From Deltaproteobacteria bacterium (GTDB lineage: Bacteria > Desulfobacterota > GWC2-55-46 > JADFVP01), in the NCBI GenBank assembly GCA_024275045.1, contig JAJRZX010000018.1, positions 1 to 44,549 on the forward strand: 44,549 nucleotides of DNA, read 5' to 3'. Below, piece by piece: positions 18,750-44,549 of this stretch (within the stretch, counting starts at the first letter, position 1; every line of letters begins with the position of its first letter). Under the pieces are notes generated by a model. That model had not been told where the DNA came from and ran no database searches. It saw only the letters and a program-made list of their open reading frames with translations. Position numbers and translations under genes: made by a program.

Positions 18750-18776
18750 TTATCGGCAGCAAGGTAAGAAACTTTA
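18750..18776 (-). promoter_or_regulatory. Consensus sigma-28 (FliA) promoter for fliC
   Basis: On the minus strand TAAAGTTT (18769-18776), 11 nt, then GCCGATAA (18750-18757) is an exact match to the sigma-28 consensus with exact spacing. Transcription should begin near 18743, about 115 nt before the fliC ATG. Confidence 0.95.
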
Positions 18777-21333: not shown

Positions 21334-21363
21334 ATCAATTCCTTGTACCAGCTCAGCTCTCTG

Positions 21364-23475: not shown

Positions 23476-23508
23476 AAGCGGTATCCTTTCCTTCAAGGCT
23501 GCAGTACT

Positions 23509-25098: not shown

Positions 25099-25355
25099 CA
25101 GAGCGCCATCCTTAATGGTTTCTCGGTTATAATCTGCAAAGAGGAGATAGCGCGCATGGCCCTTGCCTCTGCCTCCTCCCTTGAGTCTCCCGTGGTTATC
25201 ACCATGCCAGCACGCCCCGGGTGTGAGACTACAGGCGCGAGGTTATCGCCCTCTCTTACATGAAGTCTCAGCATCTCAATGCCCGGTAAACTCCCAAGGT
25301 CCGCAAGACAGCGTATCTCTTTTACAATACCCGGCTCGGGAAACCAGAACCTCTG
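25098..25355 (-). pseudogene. C-terminal remnant of the ATP-grasp gene, beyond a premature stop
   Basis: After the TAA at 25356-25358 the same frame stays open for another 85 codons to a TGA at 25098-25100. It encodes QRFWFPEPGIVKEI, GIEMLRLHVREGDNLAPVVS and HPGRAGMVITTGDSREEAEA. This is the typical C-terminal end of ATP-grasp enzymes (the RYF-P-PG strand, then the sheet with RxGxV and the final helix). The terminal TGA overlaps the radical SAM start, as expected for an intact coupled gene. The segment has no start of its own. It is most simply the lost tail of the upstream gene. Confidence 0.85.
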
Positions 25356-26348: not shown

Positions 26349-27391
26349 ACCACCACCTTTACAGCCTTAGAGGTCTTTTTATGAAAGGCGATATCAAAGC
26401 CATCCATAATCTCCCTCAAGGCCACTTTATGCGTTATAAGTGCCCCTGCCTGCACCTGCCCCTCGGCAAAGAGACCAAGGGCCTTTACAAAATCCCTTCG
26501 TTTGTAACGCTGAGAGCCTCTAACCTGAATCTCTCTCTCAGTGAGGTTCTTAAGGTTCATCCTCGGCGTATTATAATGAACGCCTGAGAGTACGATAATC
26601 CCCCCCGGCTCCATGACCTCTATGGAAGTAGTAATGGAGTCGCTGCCGTAACCGCCCGCGGTCTCAAAGGCCAGATTAAAGGGCTCCTCCCCCGCGAGTC
26701 TCTCATGAGAGGCAAGAGCAGGGTCTACTGCCGCATCAGCTCCCATGGATAGAGCAAGCTCTCTCTGATACTCATGCCTTGCAAGTGCCGTTACATATGA
26801 GGCGCCTTCAATCTTAAGGGCCTTTATGGTAAGAAGCCCAAGCGTGCCGCACCCGATGACAAGGGCCCTTTTTCCTGCTACAGACCCCGCGACAGAGAGG
26901 GCGTGAAGGGCGTCTGCAAAGGGCTCTACAAGGACGGCCTCATGAAAACCCAGCTCATCGGGAATCTCAAAGACATTTGCCGCCGGCACGGCCACCATAT
27001 CGGCAAACCCGCCGGGACGGTTAAAGCTTACAAAGGCAGCGCTCTTGCAGAGGTTTTTGCGCCCGCTCTTACATAGGGCGCATTTACGGCACGGCACAAG
27101 GGGAGAGAGGCAGACTCTTGTCCCTACCTTCAGCCCCCGCACACCACGCCCCCTGTGCTCTACAACGCCGCTAATCTCGTGTCCCGCCCAGTACACGGGC
27201 ACAGGCGGGTCACGGTGAAATATATTCAGATCGCTGCCGCATATGCCGCAGGCCATTACACGGACAAGTACCTCTCCGGCCTGAGGCCCGAAAAAACTCC
27301 AACGCCGCACCCCCAGCTCTCCGGGGCCGTTAAATACAGCGGCCCTAAGCTCCAGCCGCTTTTCTGATCTCTTCTCTAAACATGTACTCAC
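26339..27391 (-). CDS. Zinc-dependent medium-chain alcohol/sorbitol-type dehydrogenase (copy 1)
   Basis: A protein of about 335-350 residues. It carries the catalytic zinc motif MACGICGSDLNIFH, the GHEISGVVE helix, the structural zinc cluster CRKCALCKSGRKNLC and the NAD-binding fold VIGCGTLGLLTIKALK. It resembles threonine/sorbitol dehydrogenases. The exact start is unclear. The GTG at 27391 gives a 47-nt overlap with the transaldolase, and the recognisable protein begins around LRAAVFNGPGELGV. It is part of the continuous operon. The substrate is probably a sugar alcohol or polyol intermediate of the island. Confidence 0.88.
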   Translation of the reverse strand: MSTCLEKRSEKRLELRAAVFNGPGELGVRRWSFFGPQAGEVLVRVMACGICGSDLNIFHRDPPVPVYWAGHEISGVVEHRGRGVRGLKVGTRVCLSPLVPCRKCALCKSGRKNLCKSAAFVSFNRPGGFADMVAVPAANVFEIPDELGFHEAVLVEPFADALHALSVAGSVAGKRALVIGCGTLGLLTIKALKIEGASYVTALARHEYQRELALSMGADAAVDPALASHERLAGEEPFNLAFETAGGYGSDSITTSIEVMEPGGIIVLSGVHYNTPRMNLKNLTEREIQVRGSQRYKRRDFVKALGLFAEGQVQAGALITHKVALREIMDGFDIAFHKKTSKAVKVVVCP

Positions 27392-28037
27392 GTCCCGGCA
27401 CCTCCTCCCAGTCTTTTAGGAATTTATCAAGATCCATATCCGTCATGGTATTAAGGAGCATCTTCTCAAGTATGACAAAAGGCACGGTTGCGATATGAAC
27501 ACCGGCCTTTGCTATCTCCACTATCTGATGAGGGTCGCGGATGGACGCGGCAATGACCTCTGTCTTTGACTCATGACGATCCAGTGCCTCCATGAGCTCA
27601 CGCACCATGCCAAGCCCGTCATAACCTCTGTCCTCAAGGCGGCCTATAAAAGGACTGATAAAATCAGCGCCCGCCATAGTCGCAAGCAACGCCTGCGTGG
27701 GTGAGAAGACAAGGGTGAGGTTAGTCTTTACGGACTCGCCGCGAATCAGTGTAAGGGCCTCCATGCCCGCGGGATTTGCCGGAAGCTTTACCACGACATT
27801 ACGTGAAATCTCAGAGAGCTTTCTTGCCTGATCCGCCATGGCCTCGGGCTCTCTGTCAACGGCCTCCAGGCTTACGGGCATGGGATACACGGTCTCGCAT
27901 ATCTCCGTGGCAAGGGAGAAAAAATCCTTTTTCTGCCTCGCTATAATAGAGGGGTTCGTGGTAACACCGCTAAGCACTCCCCATGCCTTAGCCTTCTTTA
28001 TCTCATTAATATCAGCTGTATCGAGAAATAACCTCAT
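27345..28037 (-). CDS. Transaldolase (TalC/FSA-type, probable transaldolase)
   Basis: A 230-residue TIM-barrel aldolase of the small transaldolase/fructose-6-phosphate aldolase subfamily. It starts MRLFLDTADINEIKKA and contains GVTTNPSIIAR and the Schiff-base lysine K84 in RNVVVKLPANPAG. VSLEAVD has Glu at the position where fructose-6-phosphate aldolases carry Gln, which favours transaldolase activity. The ATG follows AAGGAGG. Finding it inside a flagellar sugar operon is unusual: the enzyme moves dihydroxyacetone units or makes C-C bonds. It could supply or modify a sugar precursor. Confidence 0.9.
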   Translation of the reverse strand: MRLFLDTADINEIKKAKAWGVLSGVTTNPSIIARQKKDFFSLATEICETVYPMPVSLEAVDREPEAMADQARKLSEISRNVVVKLPANPAGMEALTLIRGESVKTNLTLVFSPTQALLATMAGADFISPFIGRLEDRGYDGLGMVRELMEALDRHESKTEVIAASIRDPHQIVEIAKAGVHIATVPFVILEKMLLNTMTDMDLDKFLKDWEEVPGREYMFREEIRKAAGA

Positions 28038-28143
28038 AGTAATCCTCCTTGTTATGCACTGGATTTAAACCGCTCTCGCTCTCTTCTATTCCCCCGCCTC
28101 TCAGACCCCATCTCACATGAACCCACTCGCGCCTTACTGCCCC
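28038..28143. other. Spacer of 106 bp within the island
   Basis: This is the only sizeable gap within the island operon. It holds the transaldolase ribosome-binding site (AAGGAGG). I see no promoter match or hairpin in it. Confidence 0.5.
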
Positions 28144-29238
28144 TTAATCAAAGTTTATGGTAATCTTACCGCCCTGCTCCTCAAGAGCGGTTAAGGCAAG
28201 ATTTATATCGTCAAGACCGTATGTACGGCTCTGCCCCTCATCAAGGTCAAGGAGGCCCCACTCGTAGAGATCAAAGATTCTCGGCATATCCCGTACAGGG
28301 TCGCTTGAGCCGTAGAGCGAGCCTATGAGCTTTTTCTCAAGGTGAAAATCAACGGCATTCAGCTCTATCTTCATAAGGGGATGCGGCGCCCCTACCATCA
28401 CCACGGTGCCGCCTCTTCGTACCGCTGCCATTGAGCCTGCGATGGTCTCCTTTGAGGCCACGCAGTCAAAGACTATATCCGGTCCCACACCGTTGGTAAT
28501 CTCATCAGTCTCCGCCTTATTAATACTATCGCCGTAGTTATCGGCAACCCCGGAGCGCCACTTTTTTTTGTCCCTCTCTATGAGTATAATCCTGCCCGCC
28601 CCCTTTAGCCTCAGGGCCTCTATTACGGCTGTACCAACGCATCCGCCGCCAACCACCATACATGTGGCGCCGCAGGTCATGGCCTCTCCTGCTGTTCTGA
28701 ATACAGCACCGAAGGCCGTTACAACAGAACACCCCGTAGCCGCCGCTATATGCAGGGGTACGTCTTCGGAGACAGGCACGCAGCCTGTCTTATACACAAC
28801 CGTATACTCGCTAAGGGAAGATACTCCGTTAAAGTGATAGATTTCTTTTTTAGTATCGCTGAACCTTGTTGTGCCGTCAGGCAGTAAACCCCTTCCACGG
28901 GGCCATGCCACGGCACTGCAGAGATGGGTCTGCTCTCTGCGGCAAAAGTAACACTCTGCGCAGTACGCGGCCCAGCTCAGCGCAACACGGTCTCCGCACT
29001 TAAGGTTTGTAACACCCGGCCCTGTCTCCACCACCCTGCCAGCGCCCTCATGGCCGAGGACAAGGGGCATGTTGTACCTTGTGTGTCCGGTAATGGCGTT
29101 AAGGTCGCTGCGGCAGAGCCCGGCCATCTCCATCTTCACAAGGACTTCATCCGGCCCCGGAGGTTTCAGACCTATCTCTCTTACAAGAAGGGGGCTCTCT
29201 TTACTCTCAAGTACCGCCGCCCTTGTGCGTATGGCCAC
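28144..29238 (-). CDS. Zinc-dependent medium-chain alcohol dehydrogenase (copy 2)
   Basis: A 364-residue protein with the catalytic zinc motif MAGLCRSDLNAITG, GHEGAGRVVETG, the structural zinc motif CAECYFCRREQTHLC and the nucleotide fold MVVGGGCVGTAVIEALR. The insertion and motif pattern resemble class III or aryl-alcohol-type dehydrogenases and differ from the copy at 26.3-27.4 kb, so they are not a recent duplication. The GTG start directly follows the stop of the methyltransferase gene (TAA then GTG) with GGAGG 5 nt upstream. The two dehydrogenases flank the transaldolase. Confidence 0.88.
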   Translation of the reverse strand: MAIRTRAAVLESKESPLLVREIGLKPPGPDEVLVKMEMAGLCRSDLNAITGHTRYNMPLVLGHEGAGRVVETGPGVTNLKCGDRVALSWAAYCAECYFCRREQTHLCSAVAWPRGRGLLPDGTTRFSDTKKEIYHFNGVSSLSEYTVVYKTGCVPVSEDVPLHIAAATGCSVVTAFGAVFRTAGEAMTCGATCMVVGGGCVGTAVIEALRLKGAGRIILIERDKKKWRSGVADNYGDSINKAETDEITNGVGPDIVFDCVASKETIAGSMAAVRRGGTVVMVGAPHPLMKIELNAVDFHLEKKLIGSLYGSSDPVRDMPRIFDLYEWGLLDLDEGQSRTYGLDDINLALTALEEQGGKITINFD

Positions 29239-30504
29239 TTAGCCCTCCTTTCTCGCAACTACGTTATATGATGCCGCAGAAAACACAGGGTCCCTGCTGA
29301 ACGTAAGGGCAAAGTCCCCTATATCCCACTTTGTTATCTCTTCTGCCGCCTCTGAGAGCGCGCCGATATCATGGCCCTGCTTTGCCGCCGCAAGGCGCCT
29401 CTTCAGCTCATACCCCTTCACATAAGTGGTATAACTCTTCTCTTTTACGGAAAACCCCGCGCCCTCAAGCATAAGGAGCATGGGCCTCTCGCCAAGGCCC
29501 TGTATATGCCAGGGCCAGATGGCCTCCTTAAGCAGTACGTCTCCATCCTCATCACGGCGGTTGTAGGGGCATACCCTGTAGGGGTAATAATCCTCCTCCG
29601 GTGTGCTCAGTATGAGTACGCCGCCTGGGGCAAGAAGTTTCCGTACATCGCCAAGCAAATGACGGGGCTCTGCAACATGCTCAATCACATCCATGAGAAA
29701 GACAACATCAAAGGTGCCTTCTCTATCCTTAAGGTCAAGGGTCTCGCCGCAGAGCACCGTAAGGTTAGGTGCATGGGAAGACCAGGTCTCACGTACAAAC
29801 TCCGCGGTATCTGCGGATTTATCAAGAAAGACAACCTCATCGGCGAACTTTGATAAGAGCAGAGAGCCGTAACCCAGACCTCCGCCTATATCAAGGACCT
29901 TTTTTCCCCGCGCAGCGTCTATGCCGTAGGCGTACTTCATGAATATTTCCAGATCATGACCAAACCCCTTTAGTATGCCGAGATTTGGGCGTTCTCCTGA
30001 TACCTTAAGGTCTTTTTTTAGATGACCAAGGGTATCGGCAACAGTGTGCAAAGTCTCGCGAACCGTCTTAATATCACCGGCCCAGGGCACTATGGGCTCT
30101 GAAGACTCGCCTTTTTCAAGAGAAAAGGCTACCTCAGGCATGGCCTCTCTCACCTTGAATAAAGATGAGTTCACGGCCACGGCCTCGGCGGCTATGATGG
30201 AGCCAAAGAGAAAGGCATTGGCCCTGAAGGTGTTAAATGGAAAGTACGCCGTATCATATGGGTCCGCCGCCTTCTCTCTCATAAAATCAAGTGATTCACG
30301 GGTCTTAATCCCGCCGTAGTACTCCTCGTCAAGAACATAGACCTCTCTGAAGGGAAAGTTCTCTGTAATGGGAGTAAAGTTCTCCCTCTGCTTGGTTAAT
30401 ATAAGCAGGTCCACAGTACCCCTGCCCTCTTTACCGAATACATACTCTACAAGAGGCAGCGCAAGAGGCAGGGATTCCGGGAGCATTATAATTGTTCCGG
30501 CCAT
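29239..30504 (-). CDS. SAM-dependent methyltransferase with an extra N-terminal domain
   Basis: A 421-residue protein. The class I methyltransferase fold begins near residue 200 (VLDIGGGLGYGSLLLSKFAD, then DVVFLMDVIEHVAEP and LLAPGGVLILSTPEEDYYPY). The first 190 residues are a separate domain (MAGTIIMLPESLPLALPLVEYVFGK, then AYFPFNTFRANAFLFGSIIAAEAV). Its spacing recalls a GT-B-like or heptosyltransferase-like half, but I cannot assign it. The ATG follows AAAGGGGG. It overlaps the next upstream methyltransferase by 19 nt. Likely acts on a sugar hydroxyl or amine. Confidence 0.82.
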   Translation of the reverse strand: MAGTIIMLPESLPLALPLVEYVFGKEGRGTVDLLILTKQRENFTPITENFPFREVYVLDEEYYGGIKTRESLDFMREKAADPYDTAYFPFNTFRANAFLFGSIIAAEAVAVNSSLFKVREAMPEVAFSLEKGESSEPIVPWAGDIKTVRETLHTVADTLGHLKKDLKVSGERPNLGILKGFGHDLEIFMKYAYGIDAARGKKVLDIGGGLGYGSLLLSKFADEVVFLDKSADTAEFVRETWSSHAPNLTVLCGETLDLKDREGTFDVVFLMDVIEHVAEPRHLLGDVRKLLAPGGVLILSTPEEDYYPYRVCPYNRRDEDGDVLLKEAIWPWHIQGLGERPMLLMLEGAGFSVKEKSYTTYVKGYELKRRLAAAKQGHDIGALSEAAEEITKWDIGDFALTFSRDPVFSAASYNVVARKEG

Positions 30505-31439
30505 TTGTCCCCCTTTACTCCGTATATTACAAGTTCTCTACCGATATTGTGTTTTGCCATAAGCGCGTACATCTCTTTTTTAAAACCCTTCAGAGGCGGT
30601 GTTGAGAGCATGGTATCGAGATTTTTTCTTAACTTGTGACACTCTCTGCCAAGCCTCTCATCACCTACGTAGTTTCTGCCCATGAGAAGAAAAAGATCCA
30701 TTGGAAAAGTGGCAGATACCTCTACGGCGGTAAAACCCGCCTTTTTTATAAGGGCCTTCATGGAGGCAAAGGAAAAATAATTTATATGATGAGGCACAGA
30801 GAGCCAGTACGGGTTGTAACCAAGTGAGTCGCGCAGCACCTTCTGTACGGGGCTGTAATCATTTGGCACTACGGCGCAGATAATGCCGCCATCGCAAAGA
30901 AGTTCATAGGCTCCTTCCAGTACATCAAGGGGGTGGGTAACGTGCTCAAGTACCTCGCTAATATGCACGGCATCAAAACCAAACCCCTCGGCCTTAAGCT
31001 TAGGGCCGCTGAAAAACTCGTTCTTCACGGTAAGGCCCTGTGCCTCGGCATACCCGGCCGCAAGTCTTGAGGGCTCCACGCCAAGGCACTGCCAGCCCCT
31101 GCCGGTTGCGCGCTTTAGAAAAAACCCCGGGCCGCAGCCAATATCAAGTACCCGGCGCTGCCTGCCAGAGAGCCTTGACTCCATAAACTCAAGACGCTCG
31201 TCATAGACAATATTCCACCACTCAAGGTCCTTTAGAACGCCTTTTATAAAACCGGGTTTTTCATCGCTGAAGTACTGCTCTCTGTATATACGTTCCACAT
31301 CCCCCGCATCAGGCAGGGGATCAATATGTACGAAACCGCAGGTAATGCAATCCACTACGCTGTAGCCGTCCTTCTCATCTACAAGCAGACCACTGTGCTT
31401 GCTCTCTGCCACCCTCTCTCTGCAAGCCGAAGTTCTCAC
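30486..31439 (-). CDS. SAM-dependent methyltransferase with N-terminal Cys motif
   Basis: A 317-residue class I methyltransferase of the sugar-modifying type. The N-terminus carries CRERV...VVDCITCGFVHIDPLP, a probable zinc-binding ribbon common in O-antigen and NDP-sugar methyltransferases. The fold follows as VLDIGCGPGFFLKRATGRG, DAVHISEVLEHVTHPLDVL and GGIICAVVPNDYSP. A histidine-rich YWLSVPHHINYFSFASM segment resembles sugar C- or O-methyltransferases. The GTG start overlaps the PseG-type gene's stop by one base. Confidence 0.86.
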   Translation of the reverse strand: MRTSACRERVAESKHSGLLVDEKDGYSVVDCITCGFVHIDPLPDAGDVERIYREQYFSDEKPGFIKGVLKDLEWWNIVYDERLEFMESRLSGRQRRVLDIGCGPGFFLKRATGRGWQCLGVEPSRLAAGYAEAQGLTVKNEFFSGPKLKAEGFGFDAVHISEVLEHVTHPLDVLEGAYELLCDGGIICAVVPNDYSPVQKVLRDSLGYNPYWLSVPHHINYFSFASMKALIKKAGFTAVEVSATFPMDLFLLMGRNYVGDERLGRECHKLRKNLDTMLSTPPLKGFKKEMYALMAKHNIGRELVIYGVKGDKWPEQL

Positions 31440-32440
31440 TAACGCGACCCTCCACGTTTATATAACTCCGCTATAATGGAAGCTATCCTCCAGGCGCCCT
31501 TGCCGTCAGTAAGAAGGCGCGCCTGCTCCGATACATCTCGCCAGTACCCGGCATCCTCAACAAACCTCCGTGCCGTGCTCTGGATTTCCCAGTCCGTAAC
31601 TGACTGATGAAAACCAAGGGATACCCCTGCCTTCATGCTCTTAAGGGTGTTAAGGTCTTTCTCGTCCTCAAGGTAATTGGATAAAATAATTGGAGGCACG
31701 CCCATAAACGCCAGCTCATAGACAGTGGTTCCAAGGGCGGTAAAGGCTATATGCGAGGCCGCCATAAGAGGGGCCATATCCTTAACACCGTGACGGAAGG
31801 TAATCTTGCCCCAACCATCTTCTTTAAATGGCTCCATTGTCTTCATGAAGGGATAATCAGGGCCAAGTACAACGGTCATGTGAATATCCTCCATATCATA
31901 GAGGGCTTTTAGCACCTTTAGCGTAATGTTCTTTGCGTCGCACCAGCCCATGGTGACAAGTATCTCAAGAGGAAGGCTGTGTACGCGCGGTCTCATGGTT
32001 TTCTGGGCGTGGAAAAAATTCTCACCCACTATTACGAACTTACTCCCCGCGTATGGGTCCTTACCCGGAGCATCAGCCATAAGGGCAGAGGGCGTAATGG
32101 AGAGGTCCGCCACACCAGAGGCCTTTGTGGTATTATCAATGAGCAGTACCTTTGAGCCTTTTTTCTTAAAGGACTTTACATACTCCGAGACATCGTCACC
32201 GGTATCCATTACCACAACCCCTGCCGGGCCCTCGGCAAGTGCGGGTCTGCCTGTCTTGTACCTGCTCCAGCTGAAACCATTCTCCTCCACAAGCCCGGTG
32301 GCGGAGTTCTCGCCGTCAAAGAGAAAATACACGGGCATATCCATCTCTTTCAATGCTCGCGCCACGTTTAAGCTTCTCATTACATGACCTATGCCGGTGG
32401 CGCCGCCGCCTTTGGCCAGAAACTTTATGTACTCAGACAT
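31439..32440 (-). CDS. pseG: PseG-type nucleotide-sugar hydrolase / SpsG-like
   Basis: A 333-residue GT-B-fold protein. The N-terminal GIGHVMRSLNVARAL (near 16-30) is the PseG/SpsG signature, with a catalytic His at position 19. In the pseudaminic acid pathway, PseG removes UDP from UDP-2,4-diacetamido-2,4,6-trideoxy-altrose. The C-terminal half has FRHGVKDMAPLMAASHIAFTALGTTVYELAFMGVPPIIL, where the TxxE pattern binds the nucleotide. Neighbours pseB, pseC and a NeuB-family synthase support the assignment. SpsG-like sugar transferases share the same fold, so substrate specificity is not certain. Confidence 0.85.
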   Translation of the reverse strand: MSEYIKFLAKGGGATGIGHVMRSLNVARALKEMDMPVYFLFDGENSATGLVEENGFSWSRYKTGRPALAEGPAGVVVMDTGDDVSEYVKSFKKKGSKVLLIDNTTKASGVADLSITPSALMADAPGKDPYAGSKFVIVGENFFHAQKTMRPRVHSLPLEILVTMGWCDAKNITLKVLKALYDMEDIHMTVVLGPDYPFMKTMEPFKEDGWGKITFRHGVKDMAPLMAASHIAFTALGTTVYELAFMGVPPIILSNYLEDEKDLNTLKSMKAGVSLGFHQSVTDWEIQSTARRFVEDAGYWRDVSEQARLLTDGKGAWRIASIIAELYKRGGSR

Positions 32441-33450
32441 GCCTTTAACTCCTTTTTTACAGAATCCCTGAGGGACGATTCCCTTACCTTCATGGCAAGC
32501 TCCAGTGTCTTAATACCCTCGGTAAGTCCGGCCTCTACAGGCAGACCCTCATCAAGGGCAGATAAAAAACACTCCATCTCACGTACGTACATTGAGTTAA
32601 CATCAAAGGGAATCCTGCGCGTCTTCCACTTGCCTCCATTACCGATGTTTATCTCCTCCACTCCCTTTAAGACATCAAACCTCATGGTGCCTTTCTCGCC
32701 CACTATGACCATCCTGTGCTGATCGGCCTGCTGGAGAAAATCACTCTGCCACGATACGTACGTGCCTGAACAAAACCTCATTACCCCAAGGGCCATATCC
32801 TCAACATCCATCTGCAGTGGGCTTAGCTTTGCCATAAAGGCCTTAACCTCTGAGACCTCTCCAAAGAGCCACCTCAGGTTGTCAAGGCCGTGTATGCTCG
32901 TCAGCAGCACTCCGCCTCCAAGTTCCGCGCGCGCCGCGTACTCAAGCCTGTAGTCCTCGTCCCTGTGCCAGTAAGGCAGGTAAAAACCGCCGAAATAATT
33001 AACATGATAAACCGTGCCGATAATGCCTGAGTCCAGCCGTTCCTTAATGGCCTGCATCACGGGATGGAACCTGTAACACATGCCCATCATTGCGGTAATG
33101 CCCTTTTTTGCAACCATCTCACTGAGCTCATCCACACCCTCAAGGCTCATTGAGAGGGGTTTTTCGATAAATAAATGCACACCCTTTCGCGCAAGCCTCA
33201 GGGCAAAAGAGAGATGCAGGCTCGTTGGCAGGCATATAAGGGCGGCAAAAGGGCGCGCCTCAAGGGCCTTGCTGAGGTTCTTTACCATCACAGGGCTGCA
33301 GAGCCCCGCGGCGGCCTCACGAAGTCGGCTCTCGTCTTTATCAAGAAGGATAAAATCCTTCACACCAAGGGCACTGAGGTTGGCGATGTGCCGCCTTCCA
33401 ATAGAGCCGCAGCCAAGTATAAGAAAGTTTTTTTTACCTGAATCCGTCAA
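32425..33450 (-). CDS. Gfo/Idh/MocA-family NAD(P)-dependent oxidoreductase
   Basis: A 341-residue protein with an N-terminal Rossmann fold (FLILGCGSIGRRHIANLSALG), the family motif EKPLS (GVHLFIEKPLSMSLEGVDELS) and the C-terminal domain (YRFHPVMQAIKERLDSG, GGGVLLTSIHGLDNLRWLFGEV). Members oxidise or reduce sugar carbons, for example in nonulosonate and amino-sugar pathways. A TTG start with GGAGG 7 nt upstream fits. It overlaps pseG by 16 nt and lies 4 nt after the aminotransferase. Confidence 0.88.
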   Translation of the reverse strand: MTDSGKKNFLILGCGSIGRRHIANLSALGVKDFILLDKDESRLREAAAGLCSPVMVKNLSKALEARPFAALICLPTSLHLSFALRLARKGVHLFIEKPLSMSLEGVDELSEMVAKKGITAMMGMCYRFHPVMQAIKERLDSGIIGTVYHVNYFGGFYLPYWHRDEDYRLEYAARAELGGGVLLTSIHGLDNLRWLFGEVSEVKAFMAKLSPLQMDVEDMALGVMRFCSGTYVSWQSDFLQQADQHRMVIVGEKGTMRFDVLKGVEEINIGNGGKWKTRRIPFDVNSMYVREMECFLSALDEGLPVEAGLTEGIKTLELAMKVRESSLRDSVKKELKACLST

Positions 33451-33454
33451 ATCC

Positions 33455-34764
33455 TCACCTCCTGCTCCTGAAAACCTCTCGAACTATCTGCCCCTCAAGA
33501 AAAGACGCGGGGCTGAGGCTCTCAAAGGCGCTTCGTACATGGCTGAATGCCTCGTAACAGACCTCTATGGTCTTATCAATATCAGCGTTGCTGTGAGAGT
33601 AGCTGATAAAGAGCGGCCCGCCGAAGAGCACCCCTCTTTTTACCGTCTCCTGCAAAAAGAGGCTCCGCATAACAGGGTCTATCTCTCCGTTATCATTACG
33701 AAAAGCAAGCCCGGCCCTTGGTGGTCGCCCTGAGATTTCCAGGTTAAGCCCCCACTCCGCCGCCCCCTTCCTAAGCCCCTTGTGAAGCCTCTCGCCCTTT
33801 TCCCATATGTGCTCGATAACAGGCTCAGCCATAACAGTCTCAATAGTAGCCTTGGCAGCGGCAAGCCCCGTGGTGTCCCCGGAAAAGTCATGGAAAAAAA
33901 GACCTCATCAAGCACCGACATGAACTCGCGTTTACCTACAAGGGCCGATACGGCCATGCCGTTGCCCATGCCTTTACCAAAACACGCCAGGTCTGGCACA
34001 ACGTCGAATAACTCCCCTGCCCCGCCAAGTGAGTACCTGAAACCAGTTACCATCTCATCAAGTATAAAGAGGGCACCGTGTTTTTTACAGAGCTGCGCCA
34101 CGTCCTGTAAGAAGTTTCTCCTTGAGCCGAGGTTTATTACCGGGTCTGCCCCCGGGACCTCCATTATCACTGCGGCGATCTGGCCGGGATACTCATCAAA
34201 GAGCGCCGTAAGGGTCTCTATCCTGTTGTACTCAAAGGCGTGAATAAGCTCACCCGTAGCGGCAGGGATGCCGCGGTTTCTCGGCGTGGTCACGGCGTAC
34301 CAGTCCTGACAGCCGTGGTAGCCCGAGTATGCTATGTGGTCTCTACCCGTACAGCCCCTTGCAACCCTTACGGCGGCGCTTGTAACATCAGAGCCGTTTT
34401 TAGCAAATCTCACCATCTCGGCGCATGGTATAATCTCAGTAAGCAGCTCCGCAAGCTCCACCTCAAGAGGATGCATAAGTGTAAAGGTAGTGCCCTTTCT
34501 CATCCTCTCCACTACGGCCTCAACTACGCTCTTATACCCGTACCCAAGAAGAATGGGCCCCAGGGCCATGGGATAATCAATATACTCGTTGCCGTCTACA
34601 TCACGGACATGAGAGCCCTGGCCTGAGGTAAGGTACATGGGGGTAGCCCCGAATACAAACTGGTCCGGGCCCTTGCTAAGGGTCTGAGTGCCCGCGGGTA
34701 TCACCCTCTTTGCCCTCTCCCAGAGTGCCTCGGAGGCAGGATACCGGGCATTGGATGTTGTCAT
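33455..34764 (-). pseudogene. Class III aminotransferase (glutamate-1-semialdehyde aminotransferase-like), 1-base frameshift
   Basis: The N-terminal frame (from 34764, ATG after GAGGTGAACTC) encodes NARYPASEALWERAKRVIPAG, VRFAKNGSDVTSAAVRVARG, FILDEMVTGFRYS and the PLP-lysine block DLACFGKGMGNGMAVSAL. After DEVFFSMTF it runs out of frame. A second frame supplies SGDTTGLAAAKATIETVMAEP, GERLHKGLRKG and LFLQETVKRGVLFGGPLFIS to the stop at 33455. The span is 1310 nt; one added base gives 437 codons. The loss is most likely one T in the T4 run at 33883-33886. Intact, it would transfer an amino group to a sugar aldehyde or ketone. Confidence 0.9.
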
Positions 34765-34768
34765 GAGT

Positions 34769-35626
34769 TCACCTCTGTTCCTTTGCCATAAGGTTATCCG
34801 AGGTCCCGCGAGCTCGAACAAGCCCCGCGGCGGCAAGGGCATCGCGGGTTAGAGATTTGCTGTACCCCTCGTTCCTCATGGTAGATGAATTTATCTTTAA
34901 TAAACCGGTATTTGCAGAAATAAACTTAAGTACTTCCTCAAAGTAAAAAATCCTCAGCGGACAGGCAAAACCCGCAAATATCCTGCGTACGAACTCAAGG
35001 TCACGGGCATCGTCAACAGTCCAGCGCATATGAGAGAGGTCCTCGGAGTGGCTCATGGAGCGCACATTAAAAGCACTTGTATTCTTCCAGATATAAGGCG
35101 TAACGTGCTCTCTCTCAGAGGGCAGAGAGGCCTCAATAAAAGCCCTCTCAAGGGCCTCTACGGAAAAGACCTCAGTATCAAGTCCATCAGGGAATGAGCT
35201 GTCAAGCCCTATGTAGTCCACGTCCTCGCCGCTGCTCCTGCGGCAGAGAAAATCCTCAATCACCCTCTCAACAAGAAGGGGGTCTATCATGGGGCAATCC
35301 GCCGTAACACGCACCACAGTGTCTGCGCCATGGGCAAGGGCCGCGCCGTGGTAACGCGCAAGCACGTCATCAAGGGAACCTCGATACAGGAGAACACCTG
35401 CGTCCGCGGCCCAGCGCACAAGTATGTCATCCGAGGGGTCCGTGCTTGTGGCAAGTACGACCTTATCGAGGTTTCTTACTGAGTGGAGGCGGTTTACAAC
35501 GTGCCATAACATGCTTCTGCCGCTGATATCACTCAGCACCTTTCCGGGCAGCCTCTCTGAGCTCATCCTTGCCTGCACAATGGCCACCACCCCACGTCTT
35601 GCATCATCAGCGGGCTTTATCTGCAT
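34769..35626 (-). CDS. SpsF-type cytidylyltransferase (CMP-nonulosonate synthetase candidate)
   Basis: A protein of about 285 residues. It begins with the nucleotidyltransferase signature VVAIVQARMSSERLPGKVLSDI and contains VVLATSTDPSDD, LYRGSLDDVLARYHGAA and VRVTADCPMIDPLLVERVIEDF. This is the SpsF/NeuA/PseF-like fold. The C-terminal 45 residues extend beyond typical SpsF. In the pathway it would activate the nonulosonate with CTP. The ATG at 35624-35626 follows GGGAGG and overlaps the synthase stop by 10 nt. Confidence 0.88.
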   Translation of the reverse strand: MQIKPADDARRGVVAIVQARMSSERLPGKVLSDISGRSMLWHVVNRLHSVRNLDKVVLATSTDPSDDILVRWAADAGVLLYRGSLDDVLARYHGAALAHGADTVVRVTADCPMIDPLLVERVIEDFLCRRSSGEDVDYIGLDSSFPDGLDTEVFSVEALERAFIEASLPSEREHVTPYIWKNTSAFNVRSMSHSEDLSHMRWTVDDARDLEFVRRIFAGFACPLRIFYFEEVLKFISANTGLLKINSSTMRNEGYSKSLTRDALAAAGLVRARGTSDNLMAKEQR

Positions 35627-36660
35627 AGGTCCTCCCATCCAAGGGGCATGTCCTTTGTAAGGTCTCTGGCGGCCCTCATGCCAAGGACATCTTTCAGGGC
35701 CTTTGGTTTCAGCCCGTAGGCGTGGCGCACCACCTTCACCATCTCACCCGTTATAAGGGTCTCTTTCTTAATATCCATATTCACGTATATACCGCGTCTC
35801 GCCCCTGTCCGCTCAACGAGCTCCGCCTGAGAGGGCTGCTTAATGGGGCTTCCCATGGCTTCTTCAAGGCGCCTTGCCTCTGAGACCATAATCTTGAACT
35901 CCTCGGGCTCCATTGAGCAGCCATGATCAGGACCGCTCATCTTTCTATCAAGGGTAAGGTGCTTCTCAATAATCTTGGCCCCCATTGCAACGGCGCCCAG
36001 CGAGACGGCAAGACCGGGGGTATGGTCGGAGATGCCAACGGGACAGCTGAAACGCTCTGCCAGGGTGGCCAGTGCGCGTAGATTTACGTTTTTGAAATCC
36101 GGCGGGTACAGGGACGAACAATGGAGCAACGCTATCTCAGCGGCACCTGCCTCAGTAAGTATGGAGACGGCCTCCTCAACCTCGTTCATGTACGAGGCCC
36201 CTGTAGATAAAATCACGGGTCTGCCGTAAGAGGCCACTACCCGCAGGAGCGGCTCGTTGTTAATGTCTCCCGAGGCTACCTTGAACGCCTTTACACCGGC
36301 AAGATAAAGGAGCTCCGCCACCTGCGTGCTAAATGGCGTGGAGATAAAGTCCATACCACGGGACTCGGCAAGGGTCTTAAGCTCAAGGTGCCAGGGCCAG
36401 GGTATGCTGAGATTCTCAAGTACGGCAAAGGCCGGCTCGCTCTCCCAGCCGCCCCTGCCGTCAGGGCGAAGGGGGTTTACAAGGCCCTCGGCAGTAAAGG
36501 ACTGAAATTTTACGGCAGAGGCCCCGGCAAGGGACGCTGCCTCAACAAGCTCTCTTGCAAGCTCAAGGCTTCCGTTATGATTGGAACCTGCCTCGGCTAT
36601 TACGTAGACGCCTGCCTTACCGCCAATACAGTGGTCTCCTATCTTTATCTTTTTTTTCAT
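35617..36660 (-). CDS. pseI: NeuB/PseI-family nonulosonate (sialic/pseudaminic acid-type) synthase
   Basis: A 347-residue synthase that condenses phosphoenolpyruvate with a 6-carbon amino sugar. The TIM barrel starts YVIAEAGSNHNGSLELARELV and contains AVKFQSFTAEGLV, DFISTPFSTQVAELL, FKVASGDINNEPLL, LHCSSLYPPDFKNVNL, GISDHTPGLAVSLGA and IIEKHLTLDRKMSGPDHGCSMEPEEF. The C-terminal SAF/antifreeze-like domain (about 285-345) begins GARRGIYVNMDIKKETLI. ATGA couples it to pseC (4-nt overlap). The neighbouring pseB, pseC and pseG favour the PseI assignment over NeuB proper. Confidence 0.93.
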   Translation of the reverse strand: MKKKIKIGDHCIGGKAGVYVIAEAGSNHNGSLELARELVEAASLAGASAVKFQSFTAEGLVNPLRPDGRGGWESEPAFAVLENLSIPWPWHLELKTLAESRGMDFISTPFSTQVAELLYLAGVKAFKVASGDINNEPLLRVVASYGRPVILSTGASYMNEVEEAVSILTEAGAAEIALLHCSSLYPPDFKNVNLRALATLAERFSCPVGISDHTPGLAVSLGAVAMGAKIIEKHLTLDRKMSGPDHGCSMEPEEFKIMVSEARRLEEAMGSPIKQPSQAELVERTGARRGIYVNMDIKKETLITGEMVKVVRHAYGLKPKALKDVLGMRAARDLTKDMPLGWEDLCR

Positions 36661-37859
36661 ACCGCCTTCTTTCTCTTTAATGATTGGACCCTTGCAAGGG
36701 TGGATATTACTGTCTCCGCCACATACCTTACGGTCTTATCTGAGAGTGAGGGGAATATTGGAAGGCTTGCCGCCTCTGCGCTGAAGCGCTCGGCCTCGGG
36801 GTAATCACCTCGGTGGTAATTAAAACGCCTGCGGTAATAGGGCTGAAGATGTACGGGTATATAATGGACCTGCAGGGCTATGCCTTTTTCCAGCATAAGC
36901 GCGAACCAGCGCTGCTTGCTTATGCCAAGGCCCTTGAAATCAACCCTTACGGGGTACAGGTGCCACGCGCTCTCTCGGCCTCTAACCTCTGAGGGGGTCT
37001 TTAGCATATCCCCGTGGTGCGCAAAAAGTCTCTTGTAAAGGGCCGCTATCTCCTGTCTTCTCTTTATAAAAGAATCTATTTTTTTAAGCTGCGCCAACCC
37101 CAGTGCGCATTGAATATCGCTTAACCTGTAATTAAAACCAAGAGACCTCATCTCATAGTGCCACGGGGGCCAGAGTTTACCCTGAGGCGCGGTCCTGGTA
37201 ATGCCGTGGGAACGAAGTTCCTTAAGCCTCATGTAGAGGCCCCTCTCGTTGGTGGTTACGGCGCCGCCTTCGCCTGTTGTAATGGACTTTACGGGATGAA
37301 AGCTAAAGGCACTCATATCAGAGCCATAACAGCCCCCCACCTTGTGCCACTTGCCAAAGATGTCCTGCCACCTCGCGCCAAGGGCGTGACAGGCGTCCTC
37401 GATGATAAATACATCTCCCTGACCAGCGCACTCACGAAGCCTCTCCATATCAATGGGAGCGCCGCCGTAATGCACGGGAAGAATGGCGCGCACATCATCG
37501 GCCATTATCTCCTCAAGCCTCTGTATATCCATGGCCCCGGTAGAGGACTCAATATCAACAAAAACAGGGGTGCCGCCTGAGTAAAGCACAGCGTTTGGCG
37601 TGGCCACAAAGGTATTGGGTACTGTTACTGCCCTGCGGCCGTCACTTAGCCCCGCGGCAAGGCAGGCAAGATGAAGGGCAGCAGTACCGCTTGAGCAGAC
37701 TACGGCGTATCGAGCTCCCGTGTACTCGGCAATGGCCTCCTCAAATGCCTCTACACGCGGGCCCTGAGTAAGACAGGGCGCACCAAGGACCTTAAGTACA
37801 GACCTTGTATCTTCCCCGTCTATTGTTTGGCCTCCGTATGCGATAGGTCTTTTTGACAC
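36657..37859 (-). CDS. pseC: UDP-4-keto-hexosamine aminotransferase PseC
   Basis: A DegT/DnrJ/EryC1-family PLP aminotransferase of about 400 residues that makes UDP-4-amino-4,6-dideoxy-AltNAc. It has ARYAVVCSSGTAALHLACLAAGL, FIIEDACHALGARW, the PLP-lysine motif FSFHPVKSITTGEGGAV and the C-terminal HYIPVHLQPYYRR. The GTG at 37857-37859 is the likeliest start, giving SKRPIAYGGQTID. A TTG three codons earlier is possible. It overlaps the 3' end of pseB by 68 nt, longer than usual. The pair pseB-pseC is diagnostic of the pseudaminic acid pathway. Confidence 0.92.
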   Translation of the reverse strand: MSKRPIAYGGQTIDGEDTRSVLKVLGAPCLTQGPRVEAFEEAIAEYTGARYAVVCSSGTAALHLACLAAGLSDGRRAVTVPNTFVATPNAVLYSGGTPVFVDIESSTGAMDIQRLEEIMADDVRAILPVHYGGAPIDMERLRECAGQGDVFIIEDACHALGARWQDIFGKWHKVGGCYGSDMSAFSFHPVKSITTGEGGAVTTNERGLYMRLKELRSHGITRTAPQGKLWPPWHYEMRSLGFNYRLSDIQCALGLAQLKKIDSFIKRRQEIAALYKRLFAHHGDMLKTPSEVRGRESAWHLYPVRVDFKGLGISKQRWFALMLEKGIALQVHYIPVHLQPYYRRRFNYHRGDYPEAERFSAEAASLPIFPSLSDKTVRYVAETVISTLARVQSLKRKKAV

Positions 37860-38835
37860 CGCGATCAAACTCCCTGATGATTTTGTTAAGCTGAAACCTG
37901 TCGAGCTTCATCTTGTTAGTATCACTGGAAAAGGTAAAACCCTCGGGTACGGCGGTACCGTCTGTCTTTTTTTCCTCGCTCCACCATGAGAAATGAGGCT
38001 GAACAACAAAGTGATCCTCATACTCAAGGGTGAGCCTGCCGTCCTCTTTTGAGATAAGCACCTCGTGAAGCTTCTCTCCGGGACGTATGCCTATGAGGTT
38101 GAACTTGCAGTCCGGCACAATGGCCTTCGCAACATCCACTATTGGGGTGCTGGCGATTTTCGGGACAAAGATCTCGCCGCCGCGCATGCGTTCCAGAGAC
38201 TTAAGTACAAAATCAGCGCTCTCCTCAAGGGTTATCCAGAACCTTGTCATACGCATATCAGTAATGGGCATGACACCTGTTTTTTTCATCTTTAAAAATA
38301 ATGGAATAACACTGCCGCGGGACCCTGCCACGTTGCCGTAACGCACAACAGAGAAACGCGTGGGCTTGCCTCCCGCATAGGAGTTGCCTGAGACAAAGAG
38401 CTTATCAGAGCAGAGTTTTGTGGCACCGTAGAGGTTAACGGGGTTCACGGCCTTGTCCGTGGATAAGGCAACCACCTTTTTAACCCCCGTGTCCATTGAG
38501 ACGTCTATTATGTTTTTGGCCCCGAGGATATTGGTCTTAATAACCTCAAAAGGGTTGTACTCTGCGGCAGGGACCTGTTTAAGGGCCGCGGAGTGAATCA
38601 CATAATCAACACCCTCAAAGGCCCTGTAGAGCCTCTCCTTATCCCTTACATCACCGAGAAAAAACCTGAGAAGCGGATTCTTGAACCTCTCACTCATCTC
38701 GTACTGCTTTAACTCGTCGCGACTGAGAATGATGAGCCTTTTGGGGCTGCATCGCTTGAGAATCATCTCAGTAAGCTTATTGCCCAGAGAACCTGTGCCG
38801 CCTGTTATTAAAATCGTCTTGTCTTCAAGAAACAT
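37792..38835 (-). CDS. pseB: UDP-GlcNAc 4,6-dehydratase (inverting) PseB
   Basis: A 347-residue extended short-chain dehydrogenase that performs the first step, forming the UDP-4-keto-6-deoxy intermediate. The cofactor motif is TGGTGSLGNK (11-20). The catalytic triad region is LSTDKAVNPVNLYGATK with T126, D127, K128, Y136 and K140. NYF-type partners (VVRYGNVAGSRGSVIP, GEKLHEVLIS) are typical of PseB/FlaA1. The ATG follows GGAGG, and a sigma-54 promoter is about 35 bp upstream. The last 24 residues lie inside the overlap with pseC and look non-homologous; see findings. Confidence 0.94.
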   Translation of the reverse strand: MFLEDKTILITGGTGSLGNKLTEMILKRCSPKRLIILSRDELKQYEMSERFKNPLLRFFLGDVRDKERLYRAFEGVDYVIHSAALKQVPAAEYNPFEVIKTNILGAKNIIDVSMDTGVKKVVALSTDKAVNPVNLYGATKLCSDKLFVSGNSYAGGKPTRFSVVRYGNVAGSRGSVIPLFLKMKKTGVMPITDMRMTRFWITLEESADFVLKSLERMRGGEIFVPKIASTPIVDVAKAIVPDCKFNLIGIRPGEKLHEVLISKEDGRLTLEYEDHFVVQPHFSWWSEEKKTDGTAVPEGFTFSSDTNKMKLDRFQLNKIIREFDRGVKKTYRIRRPNNRRGRYKVCT

Positions 38836-40889: not shown

Positions 40890-42530
40890 TTACCTTATAT
40901 TAAGCAGCGTATTAAACATCTCATTGGCCGCGCTGAGCAGCCGAGCCGATGCCTCAAAGGCCTTCTGCAGCTTAATCATGTTAATAGCCTCCTCATCAAG
41001 GGAGACCCCTGATACAGAGGACCTCTGAATCTCTATCTGCGCCAGCACAGCCTCTTTTACGGCGGCGTTATTCTCAGCGTCATTGGCCTTTGTGCCTGTA
41101 TCAGAGACAAGGCCCTGATAAAAAGAGGCAAGGGTAACGCCCTGCACAAGTGGTTGGTCTCGAAGCCCGGAGAGGGAGATGGCGTTAGTATTGTCTCCGG
41201 GAATCCCCGCAAGGGTAGATGAGGCCGCTATGGCAGAGGTGTTAGTTACAGATACGCCCATGTTCATGGCCGCGCTCTTTGTAGCGCTGATACTAAAGAC
41301 ATCACCGCCCGCCGGTGGTGTGGGGCTGTCTGTTACGGTAACGCTTATGCCCTCAAAGTTTATGGCTGCCCCTGATGTATAAGTGCCGGAGGTTACCACT
41401 GAGTTGCTGCCAAGGTTTACCACAATGTAGTTGGAAGACCCGGAAAAACGTATCTCATAATCATCAAGGGTTAAGGCCGCGGGGTCTGTAACTGTGCCCC
41501 CTGAGATAAGCGCGCCCCCAAGGTTGCGGCTCATCTTCGCGGTATCAATGTTCATGGGGGTGAAAAAATCACGCCCCGTGCCTGCGTCAAGTCCGTATCC
41601 CGCCCTGTGCTGTACGTTTACCTCTTTTATAATCGTAGCCGAGAGCAGATTGATACTCTCAAGGGCCCCTGTGAGATCGTTCCTGCCGTTAATAAAACCT
41701 TTCAGTGTTCCTGACTTTATAGTCCGCGCAAGATTGGCCCCCTTGTACGTAACCTCGGTTAGAAGATTGTTATCACCGTTAACCGAGACTGTAAGTGCCG
41801 TGGAGGTAACGCCTGATACAAGGGAAAAACCGCCGTCCGTTACAACATCCACTACGCCGGGAGAGCTCTCTATGGTGGTGATGCCGATTTTATCGGCAAG
41901 CTCTCCAAGGAGAACATCTCTCTTGTCCTTAAGGTCGTTACTGGATGAGCCTGTTACGTCAATACCTTGAATCTCTTTATTCAGTGCAGCTATCTGCGCC
42001 GAGAGCGTGTTAATATCAGCTGTAATACCGCGAATCTCGCCGTTTACATTGCTTATCTCACGCCTTATGCGCGAATCCACGCCCTTAAAGGCTTCGGAGA
42101 GCACAATACCGCTTGAGAGCACGGCCTGTCGTGCGGGACGAGATGACGGGTCCAGGGAGAGCTCCTCAAAGGAGTTGAAAAAATCATCAAGGGGTTTGCT
42201 TATACCTGCGCCGCCAAGGTCGTTAAGCACGCCCTCAAGGTCTTTTAAGATCCCGGCGTGTGAGGTCTCGGCAGAGAGCCCGCTGCGGGCGTCGTTTAAC
42301 TGAAGCGCGATAAACCTGTCGTAGACCCTCTCTACGCCGCTTACATCAACTCCTGTACCAAAAAAATGCCCCCCGAAACTCACGGGGTCCTTGGAGGTAA
42401 GCACGGCCCTCTGCCTTGTATAACCCGGTGTATTTACATTGGAGATATTATGCGAGGTTACGTTAAGGGCCTCCTGAGAGGCGTTTATACCGGTCCTCGC
42501 TATCTCAAAAACTCCGTTAAGAGACGGCAT
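40890..42530 (-). CDS. flgK: Flagellar hook-filament junction protein FlgK
   Basis: FlgK (HAP1) is the junction protein on the hook. A 546-residue protein that begins PSLNGVFEIARTGINASQEALNVTSHNISNVNTPGYTRQ, the classical FlgK motif. It contains LDDFFNSFEELSLDPSSRPARQAVL and ends with VSLDEEAINMIKLQKAFEASARLLSAANEMFNTLLNI. I chose the ATG at 42528-42530 because AAGGGGG lies just upstream; the longer in-frame start lies inside flgN. It sits 1 nt after flgN. Confidence 0.96.
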   Translation of the reverse strand: MPSLNGVFEIARTGINASQEALNVTSHNISNVNTPGYTRQRAVLTSKDPVSFGGHFFGTGVDVSGVERVYDRFIALQLNDARSGLSAETSHAGILKDLEGVLNDLGGAGISKPLDDFFNSFEELSLDPSSRPARQAVLSSGIVLSEAFKGVDSRIRREISNVNGEIRGITADINTLSAQIAALNKEIQGIDVTGSSSNDLKDKRDVLLGELADKIGITTIESSPGVVDVVTDGGFSLVSGVTSTALTVSVNGDNNLLTEVTYKGANLARTIKSGTLKGFINGRNDLTGALESINLLSATIIKEVNVQHRAGYGLDAGTGRDFFTPMNIDTAKMSRNLGGALISGGTVTDPAALTLDDYEIRFSGSSNYIVVNLGSNSVVTSGTYTSGAAINFEGISVTVTDSPTPPAGGDVFSISATKSAAMNMGVSVTNTSAIAASSTLAGIPGDNTNAISLSGLRDQPLVQGVTLASFYQGLVSDTGTKANDAENNAAVKEAVLAQIEIQRSSVSGVSLDEEAINMIKLQKAFEASARLLSAANEMFNTLLNIR

Positions 42531-42531
42531 A

Positions 42532-43020
42532 TTAAACCCCCTTTCTAAGCCTCGCGCCTTTAACGGCCTTGCCGTCAACAAGGCCCGTGGACTGATATGT
42601 GCCCCTTACAAAAAAGGCCTCAAGAAAATCAAGGCTGCGGCCAAGATTACTGAGGCTCTCTGCTATGAGCAGATGATTGCTCTTATTCAACTCCGCCACA
42701 CGCTCCATAGCTTCAGAGAGCTCACCTGCGGTCTCTTTAAGAGCAGACTTTTCCTTCCCTGCACTCAGGGCCATAAGTGCCTTAAGTCCCTTCTGTGCTT
42801 TTTGCCCCTTTTTCTCAAGCAGAGATGAGACCGCTTCAACACGTCTCGCAGATATGCTGCTTAAGCCCGCGAGTAAAGGGTCTTTAGCGGACAAGACCTC
42901 GTAAAGATACATGAAATCCCTTGAGATAACGGCCTTACGCTCCTCTTCAAGGACCGATTGAAGCTTTACATACATATCGGTCTCCATGGAGAGTCGCTCT
43001 AAGAGAGAACCAGTATCCAT
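42532..43020 (-). CDS. flgN: FlgN-type flagellar export chaperone
   Basis: A 162-residue, wholly helical protein between flgM and flgK, where the FlgK/FlgL chaperone FlgN is normally found. Sequence features fit FlgN: LLERLSMETDMYVKLQSVLEEERKAVISRDFMYLYEVLSAKDPLL, then a long helix ending in AELNKSNHLLIAESLSNL. It lies 3 nt after flgM and 1 nt before flgK. Confidence 0.88.
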   Translation of the reverse strand: MDTGSLLERLSMETDMYVKLQSVLEEERKAVISRDFMYLYEVLSAKDPLLAGLSSISARRVEAVSSLLEKKGQKAQKGLKALMALSAGKEKSALKETAGELSEAMERVAELNKSNHLLIAESLSNLGRSLDFLEAFFVRGTYQSTGLVDGKAVKGARLRKGV

Positions 43021-43023
43021 GGA

Positions 43024-43341
43024 TCAATCGGTGCGATGTGAGGTCTTGTAAAAGTTTATGGCATTCTTGATGATGCCCTCGGCTATCTTGGCGGACTTCA
43101 TATTATACTTGCCCTCGTCAATAGCGTTCTTTATGCGCTCTATCTTCTCTTCCCTCACATCAGGGGAAGCCTCTACGAGTTTTCTGAGATTAGCGAGCTT
43201 TTTGGCCTTGCCAGAGACATTTACCCTGTCAATCACCTGAGCGGCCTTGGCCTTTCGCGGACGCGCCTTAAGCTCCGGCCTGCTGCTCTCCTGAAGCTTT
43301 ACAGATGCATCGAGTAATGGGTTCTTCCCGGTAATTTTCAT
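43024..43341 (-). CDS. flgM: Anti-sigma-28 factor FlgM
   Basis: FlgM holds sigma-28 inactive until it is exported through the completed hook. A 105-residue protein that starts MKITGKNPLL after GGAGG. It has the FlgM C-terminal region DRVNVSGKAKKLANL, EEKIERIKNAIDEGKYNM and AEGIIKNAINFYK. The GGAGG to ATG spacing of 5 nt decides the start over an in-frame codon 12 nt upstream. A sigma-28-like promoter lies upstream at 43378-43405, giving the expected late-class control. Confidence 0.93.
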   Translation of the reverse strand: MKITGKNPLLDASVKLQESSRPELKARPRKAKAAQVIDRVNVSGKAKKLANLRKLVEASPDVREEKIERIKNAIDEGKYNMKSAKIAEGIIKNAINFYKTSHRTD

Positions 43342-43377
43342 ATATACCTCCACTTAATTGTTCCGGTCATACTTAAG

Positions 43378-43405
43378 TTAACGGTTATGACCTTCAGAAA
43401 CTTTA
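43378..43405 (-). promoter_or_regulatory. Sigma-28-like promoter for flgM
   Basis: On the minus strand TAAAGTTT (43398-43405) is a perfect -35 box, followed by 12 nt and ACCGTTAA (43378-43385), 6 of 8 matches to GCCGATAA. The spacer is one longer than ideal. The predicted start leaves about 35 nt before the flgM ATG. Confidence 0.7.
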
Positions 43406-43483
43406 GTTTTTTCTATATAAATACATTAACTGCAAAAAAAACCCTTTTTATCGGTAAATCAAACATTATTTAAGAGGTAAGCA

Positions 43484-43508
43484 CCGGGCCGCCATAAAGG
43501 CGGCCCGG
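43484..43508. terminator. Strong GC hairpin after the flgM-like gene
   Basis: ccgggccgcc and ggcggcccgg form a perfect 10-bp stem around ataaa. The flanking agag/ctct bases extend the structure on both sides. On the minus strand it starts 17 nt after the stop at 43526 and no long T-run follows, so it may be a terminator of the flgI-flgJ transcript or a processing hairpin. Confidence 0.65.
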
Positions 43509-43525
43509 CACGGTGCCTCTCTTAA

Positions 43526-43852
43526 TTATAAGGGATGAGCATGACTCTTATAAAAATCAACGGCACTCCTCATAAGATACCCGGCGGCCCGTACGCCCCC
43601 GGCTCCGAGACGGCTGTCATTGATATTTTCCTTAAACTCCTCAATTCTCTCTGCCCTGCCCTCCGGGGTAAGCCTGGCGGGGTTAGTGAGATTGCCGAGC
43701 CTTCTTGCCTTTGCCGAGAGATTAACCCTGTGGGCCGCATTGGAGACTCTGCCCTTATTAAGGTTTACACCAAACTTGGCCTTAAGCGCATCTCTGCCGC
43801 CGTGGAGCTTGGCGGCTATATTCATCATCTGATTCTGAGCGGCTACTTTCAT
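43526..43852 (-). CDS. Second FlgM-like protein (divergent paralogue)
   Basis: A 108-residue protein whose C-terminal half aligns with FlgM: HRVNLSAKARRLGNL against DRVNVSGKAKKLANL, RAERIEEFKENINDSRLGAG against EEKIERIKNAIDEGKYNM, and YLMRSAVDFYKSH against GIIKNAINFYKTSH. The N-terminal half differs from FlgM. It is 185 bp from flgM, separated by a hairpin and a sigma-28-like promoter, so it belongs to the flgI-flgJ transcript. It may be a second anti-sigma-28 factor, or a divergent copy with another target. Confidence 0.8.
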   Translation of the reverse strand: MKVAAQNQMMNIAAKLHGGRDALKAKFGVNLNKGRVSNAAHRVNLSAKARRLGNLTNPARLTPEGRAERIEEFKENINDSRLGAGGVRAAGYLMRSAVDFYKSHAHPL

Positions 43853-43863
43853 GTTTTCCTCCT

Positions 43864-44265
43864 TTATTTATTACTGTTTATGTTAAGTTGACGTTGATAC
43901 TCAAAAAAATCCATCTTAAAAGCCTGCCCATCTGCCTGCGGTATATTTCTATCTTCTACAGTGCCCTCATTTGCCTTAAAACCCTGAGTCAATATCTTGC
44001 CGAGGCCAAGGCCCGTACCCGCGGCCATTATCTTTGAAATCTCCCAGTCAAAGAGCGAGGTATATACGTCCTCTCTCATGCCGTCGCCAAGAAGATCGCT
44101 CTTTACAATGGTAGAGCGCATGGTTTTGAGCATATGGTTTATAAAAAGGGCCTCGAAATCAACAACGGCTTTTTTTACCTTCTCCGCCTTTACCTGTGCT
44201 TTAGTAGTCTTCGCAACACCCTTCAGCGGCAAATCATTGGAGAGAAGAGGACCCACATCACTCAT
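43864..44265 (-). CDS. flgJ: Rod-binding protein FlgJ (N-terminal domain only)
   Basis: A 133-residue protein with the FlgJ rod-binding domain: VDFEALFINHMLKTMRSTIVKSDLLGDGMREDVYTSLFDWEISKIM, then GLGLGKILTQGF. There is no glucosaminidase domain; the separate-domain form is common outside Enterobacteria. It is preceded by flgI and followed by the flgM-like gene. Confidence 0.92.
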   Translation of the reverse strand: MSDVGPLLSNDLPLKGVAKTTKAQVKAEKVKKAVVDFEALFINHMLKTMRSTIVKSDLLGDGMREDVYTSLFDWEISKIMAAGTGLGLGKILTQGFKANEGTVEDRNIPQADGQAFKMDFFEYQRQLNINSNK

Positions 44266-44279
44266 CTGCGTACCTTCCT

Positions 44280-44549
44280 TTATATAATCTCAATCTCCGC
44301 ATGAAGCGCCCCTGCCGCCTTCATGGCCTCAAGTATGGCTACAAGGTCCCGCGGTGTCACGCCTACGAGGTTAAGGGCTCGAACTACGTCCTTTAGACGC
44401 ACTGCCTGCGGCAGCACTATGAGGCGTGACTCCTTTTCCTTTACCCCGAGTACGGCCTGCGGCTGAACCACGGTTCTGCCCGCGGCCAGCTCATTTGGCT
44501 GTGAGATAAGGTACTGCGTCTTTATCTCAATGCTTATGTCTCCATGAGA
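44280..44549 (-). CDS. flgI: Flagellar P-ring protein FlgI, 5' end beyond the window
   Basis: Only the C-terminal 89 codons are in view. They contain HGDISIEIKTQYLISQPNEL, VVQPQAVLGVKE and LPQAVRLKDVVRALNLVGVTPRDLVAILEAMKAAGALHAE, the conserved FlgI C-terminus. FlgI forms the periplasmic P ring around the rod, which marks a Gram-negative cell. It lies 14 nt upstream of flgJ. Confidence 0.95.
   Translation of the reverse strand, partial: SHGDISIEIKTQYLISQPNELAAGRTVVQPQAVLGVKEKESRLIVLPQAVRLKDVVRALNLVGVTPRDLVAILEAMKAAGALHAEIEII

Follow-up and report, generated by a model that had tools for sequence, protein, structure and literature searches.

A diverged second FlgM-like gene between flgJ and flgM in a deltaproteobacterial flagellar cluster

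The window analysed here, the whole 44,549-nucleotide stretch of a Deltaproteobacteria draft genome, encodes two FlgM-like proteins close together on its minus strand, namely an ordinary FlgM (P0002) and a diverged homologue (P0001) specified by an extra gene directly behind flgJ. We tentatively propose, as a plausible reading rather than a firm one, that P0001 arose in this lineage as a tandem paralogue of FlgM, is made from the rod/ring operon and acts as an early inhibitor of sigma-28, while P0002 provides the sigma-28-driven feedback. The basis of this proposal is seen directly in the data: the homology of the two proteins, the location of the extra gene, a sigma-28-type promoter on P0002 only, a single FliA in the genome and the uniqueness of the pair among the relatives searched.

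Results

The gene order on the minus strand is flgI, flgJ, P0001, a hairpin, a sigma-28-type promoter, P0002, flgN, flgK, flgL, csrA and fliW, where flgL, csrA and fliW were identified by eye from their translations. The ORF of flgI is present as its 3' part (44280..44549), truncated by the contig end. flgJ (43864..44265) is a short form of 133 aa carrying the rod-binding domain only (PF10135), flgN (42532..43020; PF05130) encodes the export chaperone, and flgK (40890..42581) was recognised by BLAST to the FlgK of relatives. The FlgJ proteins of class relatives are mostly ~257-285 aa long with a C-terminal M23-like peptidase motif, which is absent from the flgJ of the window; the P0001 gene occupies the position where the C-terminal peptidase domain of FlgJ would come next. 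A long run of genes of sugar-nucleotide, NeuB-like, glycosyl- and methyltransferase type (19417-37868) separates the flagellin/fliD region from fliW-csrA-flgL and was judged by eye to be probably involved in flagellin glycosylation.

P0002 (43024..43341, minus strand) is a canonical FlgM, the anti-sigma-28 factor. It probably starts at the ATG at 43341, preceded by a GGAGG ribosome-binding site and giving 105 aa; the GTG at 43353 (109 aa) overlaps this site. The protein scores 62 bits against the Pfam FlgM family PF04316 (cut-off 25) and 60.7 bits against the NCBIfam family TIGR03824 (cut-off 40.75). It lies in the conserved flgI-flgJ-flgM-flgN-flgK place, and both the synteny and the sigma-28 promoter that mark flgM are found. 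In character P0002 resembles FlgMs that come from different families of the class (42% to that of locus L007) and groups with them, unlike the FlgI and FlgK of the window, which look order-like by identity.

The P0001 gene (43526..43852, minus strand) is an intact ORF of 108 aa with an ATG start and an AGGAGG ribosome-binding site, 11 bases past the flgJ stop. Its codon score of 0.456 per codon is at the level of the neighbouring genes (best shuffle -0.08), and the other reading frames at this place have no gene-like score, which rules out an antisense artefact. P0001 reaches 22.3 bits (E 1.5e-4) against the Pfam FlgM profile and 20.6 bits against the NCBIfam one, under the cut-offs of 25 and 40.75 bits, respectively. 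BLAST aligns it with P0002 from residue 1 with 31/104 identities (30%, E 3e-16), and hhalign against FlgM gives E 1.4e-5. P0001 obtains 25.3 bits (E 7.6e-7) from a leave-out profile, made from the FlgMs of relatives and including neither protein of the window; none of 1000 shuffled versions of P0001 scores above 8.3. On the BLAST alignment, the leave-out profile against shuffles and the codon score, the pair is more than a chance finding. On these sequence grounds P0001 is truly homologous to FlgM, if diverged and under both curated cut-offs, and the two clustered FlgM-like proteins of the preliminary description are confirmed in substance, with this qualification for the 108-residue one, which the profile searches did not show to be unlike FlgM. 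A search by sequence for PDB relatives of P0001 gave none that was convincing.

The common motifs quoted in that description are all there, i.e. RVNLSAKA/RVNVSGKA, RAERIEEFK/REEKIERIK and DFYK/NFYK. The N-terminus had been taken as the main difference between the proteins, which does not clearly hold: the identity is about 27% before the RVN motif and about 34% after it (hand count on the BLAST alignment), and P0001 departs from other FlgMs chiefly in the last third, where G-x-Y and K-V-A are lost. Among the 10 columns invariant in 13 FlgMs, it retains M, K, S, R, K and A and alters G5, D38, G77 and Y79 (P0002 numbering). S46, R66, K74, I77 and A90 are retained, so that the conserved core V-x-[LI]-S-x-x-A and the R and K of helix 2 are present; the G-x-Y step ahead of the last helix reads S-R-L in P0001, although G77 and Y79 are invariant in the 13 other FlgMs. 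We conclude from this column pattern that P0001 preserves the first motif for sigma binding and helix 2 (R..K..K..I) but is altered where the last helix is entered. The AlphaFold models of the pair are of low confidence, as expected for FlgM (mean pLDDT 58 and 68); in both, three helices are predicted at the C-terminus, with matching order.

A sigma-28 promoter of the type TAAAGTTT-N11/12-GCCGATAT precedes flgM in 27/27 related loci with a readable flgJ-flgM gap. Its counterpart in the window, TAAAGTTT-N12-ACCGTTAA (43405-43378, minus strand; exact pattern match), precedes P0002, not P0001, and is the only sigma-28-type match in the region; P0001 is preceded by no promoter of its own. The flagellin promoter TAAAGTTTCTTACCTTGCTGCCGATA at 18751-18776 provides a sigma-28-type comparison. 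No sigma-54 sites were found near the pair, the pattern being under chance level in the window. A strong hairpin (43472..43521, minus strand) lies in the interval from P0001 to the flgM promoter, with a z of -5.1 and 0/200 shuffles folding as well. It occurs as a single copy in the genome and hence is not a repeated element. It could be a terminator or a processing site; it has no clear T run and is not called by the terminator scan, so termination after P0001 is only suggested. Since the sigma-28 promoter stands before P0002 only and the hairpin lies between the genes, P0001 is most simply read as the 3'-terminal gene of the flgI-flgJ operon. The promoter of this operon is outside the window, and we therefore infer the 'early' class of P0001. 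The separate transcription proposed earlier is thus supported for P0002 by its own promoter, while the end of the P0001 transcript is indicated by the hairpin at most.

Uncultivated 'Deltaproteobacteria' MAGs are the nearest named relatives. FlgM is present in 40 of the 63 genomes of the window's class, and the other 62 genomes contain no second FlgM match. In the readable loci of relatives, flgM comes directly after flgJ at a distance of 77 to 241 bases; no extra FlgM-like ORF lies between the two genes in the loci read, and no second one within 1.5 kb of the FlgM loci examined. Of the 395 phylum genomes sampled, 33 apart from this one have at least two FlgM matches, and none of these 33 has a tandem pair. 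The survey of relatives that the preliminary description suggested hence shows the pair in no relative searched. A peptide-pattern search of genome contigs gave no P0001 orthologues, no further FlgM was found elsewhere in this genome, and a search within the literature available gave no account of two FlgM. The FlgM profile is weak for P0001-like proteins, so the survey could miss very diverged copies elsewhere.

The best match of P0001 anywhere is P0002 (55 bits), and the runner-up has 26. Among 111 loci with an FlgM match, the FYK C-terminus is common to these two proteins only. They are sisters in an 87-row tree with support 94/94; in a 30-row tree the support drops to 58/48, and all alternatives survive the AU tests. 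The branch of P0001 is very long in the trees. The favoured origin would be a tandem duplication within the lineage, after which P0001 changed fast.

The genome has one FliA-type sigma (sigma-28) and other sigma-70-family genes. The reading frame of its only fliA, as assembled, is interrupted in region 4 by a TAG, YYFN*LTLKEIG (L036 1390-2289, minus strand; G000:C12:2218-3006). The site reads E-L-T in the two relatives compared over their tails, and the fliA matches of relatives have no internal stops. Other genes of the window end with TAG, so it is a stop codon here. This TAG may be an assembly error, a strain variant or a true loss of region 4 from sigma-28, and if the TAG is real, sigma-28 may be non-working in this genome. 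An aminotransferase-like gene of the window (33455-34842) is seemingly split into overlapping frames, 33679-34842 and 33455-33832, in a frameshift-like manner, which together with the TAG of fliA may point to assembly errors.

Discussion

Our preferred reading is that P0001, whose gene was inserted after flgJ and ahead of the flgM promoter for sigma-28, would be made with the rod/ring operon through co-transcription with flgI and flgJ, ahead of hook-basal body completion, and would most likely bind and hold sigma-28 (FliA) at this early stage. P0002, expressed from its own sigma-28 promoter, would be the usual autoregulated and presumably exported inhibitor, so that the early and late supplies of FlgM may be divided between two genes. 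The earlier suggestion that one of the proteins inhibits sigma-28 early fits the promoter standing before P0002 only, with both the binding of P0001 and its early expression predicted. The proposal is weakened because P0001 scores under the cut-offs, has lost invariant columns and has a very long branch, the hairpin is without a T run, and fliA has a TAG. We speculate further, and consider it doubtful, that the pair forms a two-gene checkpoint, in which the early, operon-coupled paralogue holds FliA through rod/ring building and, once secretion has switched, hands over to the late, autoregulated FlgM, the two following separate rules for export or release.

The in-frame TAG of fliA makes a close and serious rival of the hypothesis that P0001 is a duplicate no longer able to bind sigma-28 strongly, and now decaying or close to neutral, a possibility to be kept in mind even if we think it somewhat unlikely. 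Such decay would also account for the very long branch, the disappearance of G-x-Y and, in the last helix, of the motif K-V-A, and the knowledge of P0001 from one genome only. However, the frame is intact with a good codon score and a strong ribosome-binding site, and the sigma-binding motif and helix 2 are retained.

An alternative hypothesis, which we regard as improbable, could be that P0001 still binds sigma-28 while its export is lost or altered, which would make it a fixed cytoplasmic brake or an export competitor and no assembly sensor. The N-terminal stretch MKIGGKKPGVGTDNYVKK, conserved in the FlgMs of the order, is absent from both P0001 and P0002. However, the alignment of P0001 with FlgM runs from residue 1, and FlgM export signals are poorly defined by sequence. 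The different N-terminal export signal of the preliminary description finds little support here, as both proteins start with MK[I/V]...N and both are without MKIGGKKPGVGTDNYVKK. Its other suggestion, a different sigma target, is very improbable: the last helix of P0001 is changed and other sigma-70-family genes exist, but with a single FliA-type sigma a second sigma-28 is an unlikely target, no match hints at another target, and P0001 retains V-N-L-S-x-K-A, the sigma-28 motif, and sits inside the flagellar operon.

The position of P0001 is unusual, but the system is not of a new kind: a known regulator is seen here in a variant specific to one lineage. As it stands, we have one lineage's diverged duplicate from a single draft genome. 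Like the 33 other multi-FlgM genomes of the phylum sample, this genome encodes more than one FlgM-like protein; the copies in those genomes are on different contigs or far apart on one contig, in contrast to the tandem pair here. P0002 is a full member of the FlgM family (PF04316, TIGR03824). The pair agrees with the family in size, in its place beside flgN-flgK, in V-x-[LI]-S-x-x-A and in the helix R..K..K..I. P0001 differs by its scores under the curated cut-offs, by lacking G-x-Y and a sigma-28 promoter, and by being an extra gene behind flgJ.

The single flgM of Salmonella has two promoters, giving an early supply from the basal-body operon and a late sigma-28-driven supply, the same two supplies that we propose for the pair. 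In Salmonella both promoters serve one gene, whereas here two diverged genes may split the roles. If our proposal is true, the two-promoter supply of Salmonella is divided in this lineage between two proteins, and each role can be tested separately.
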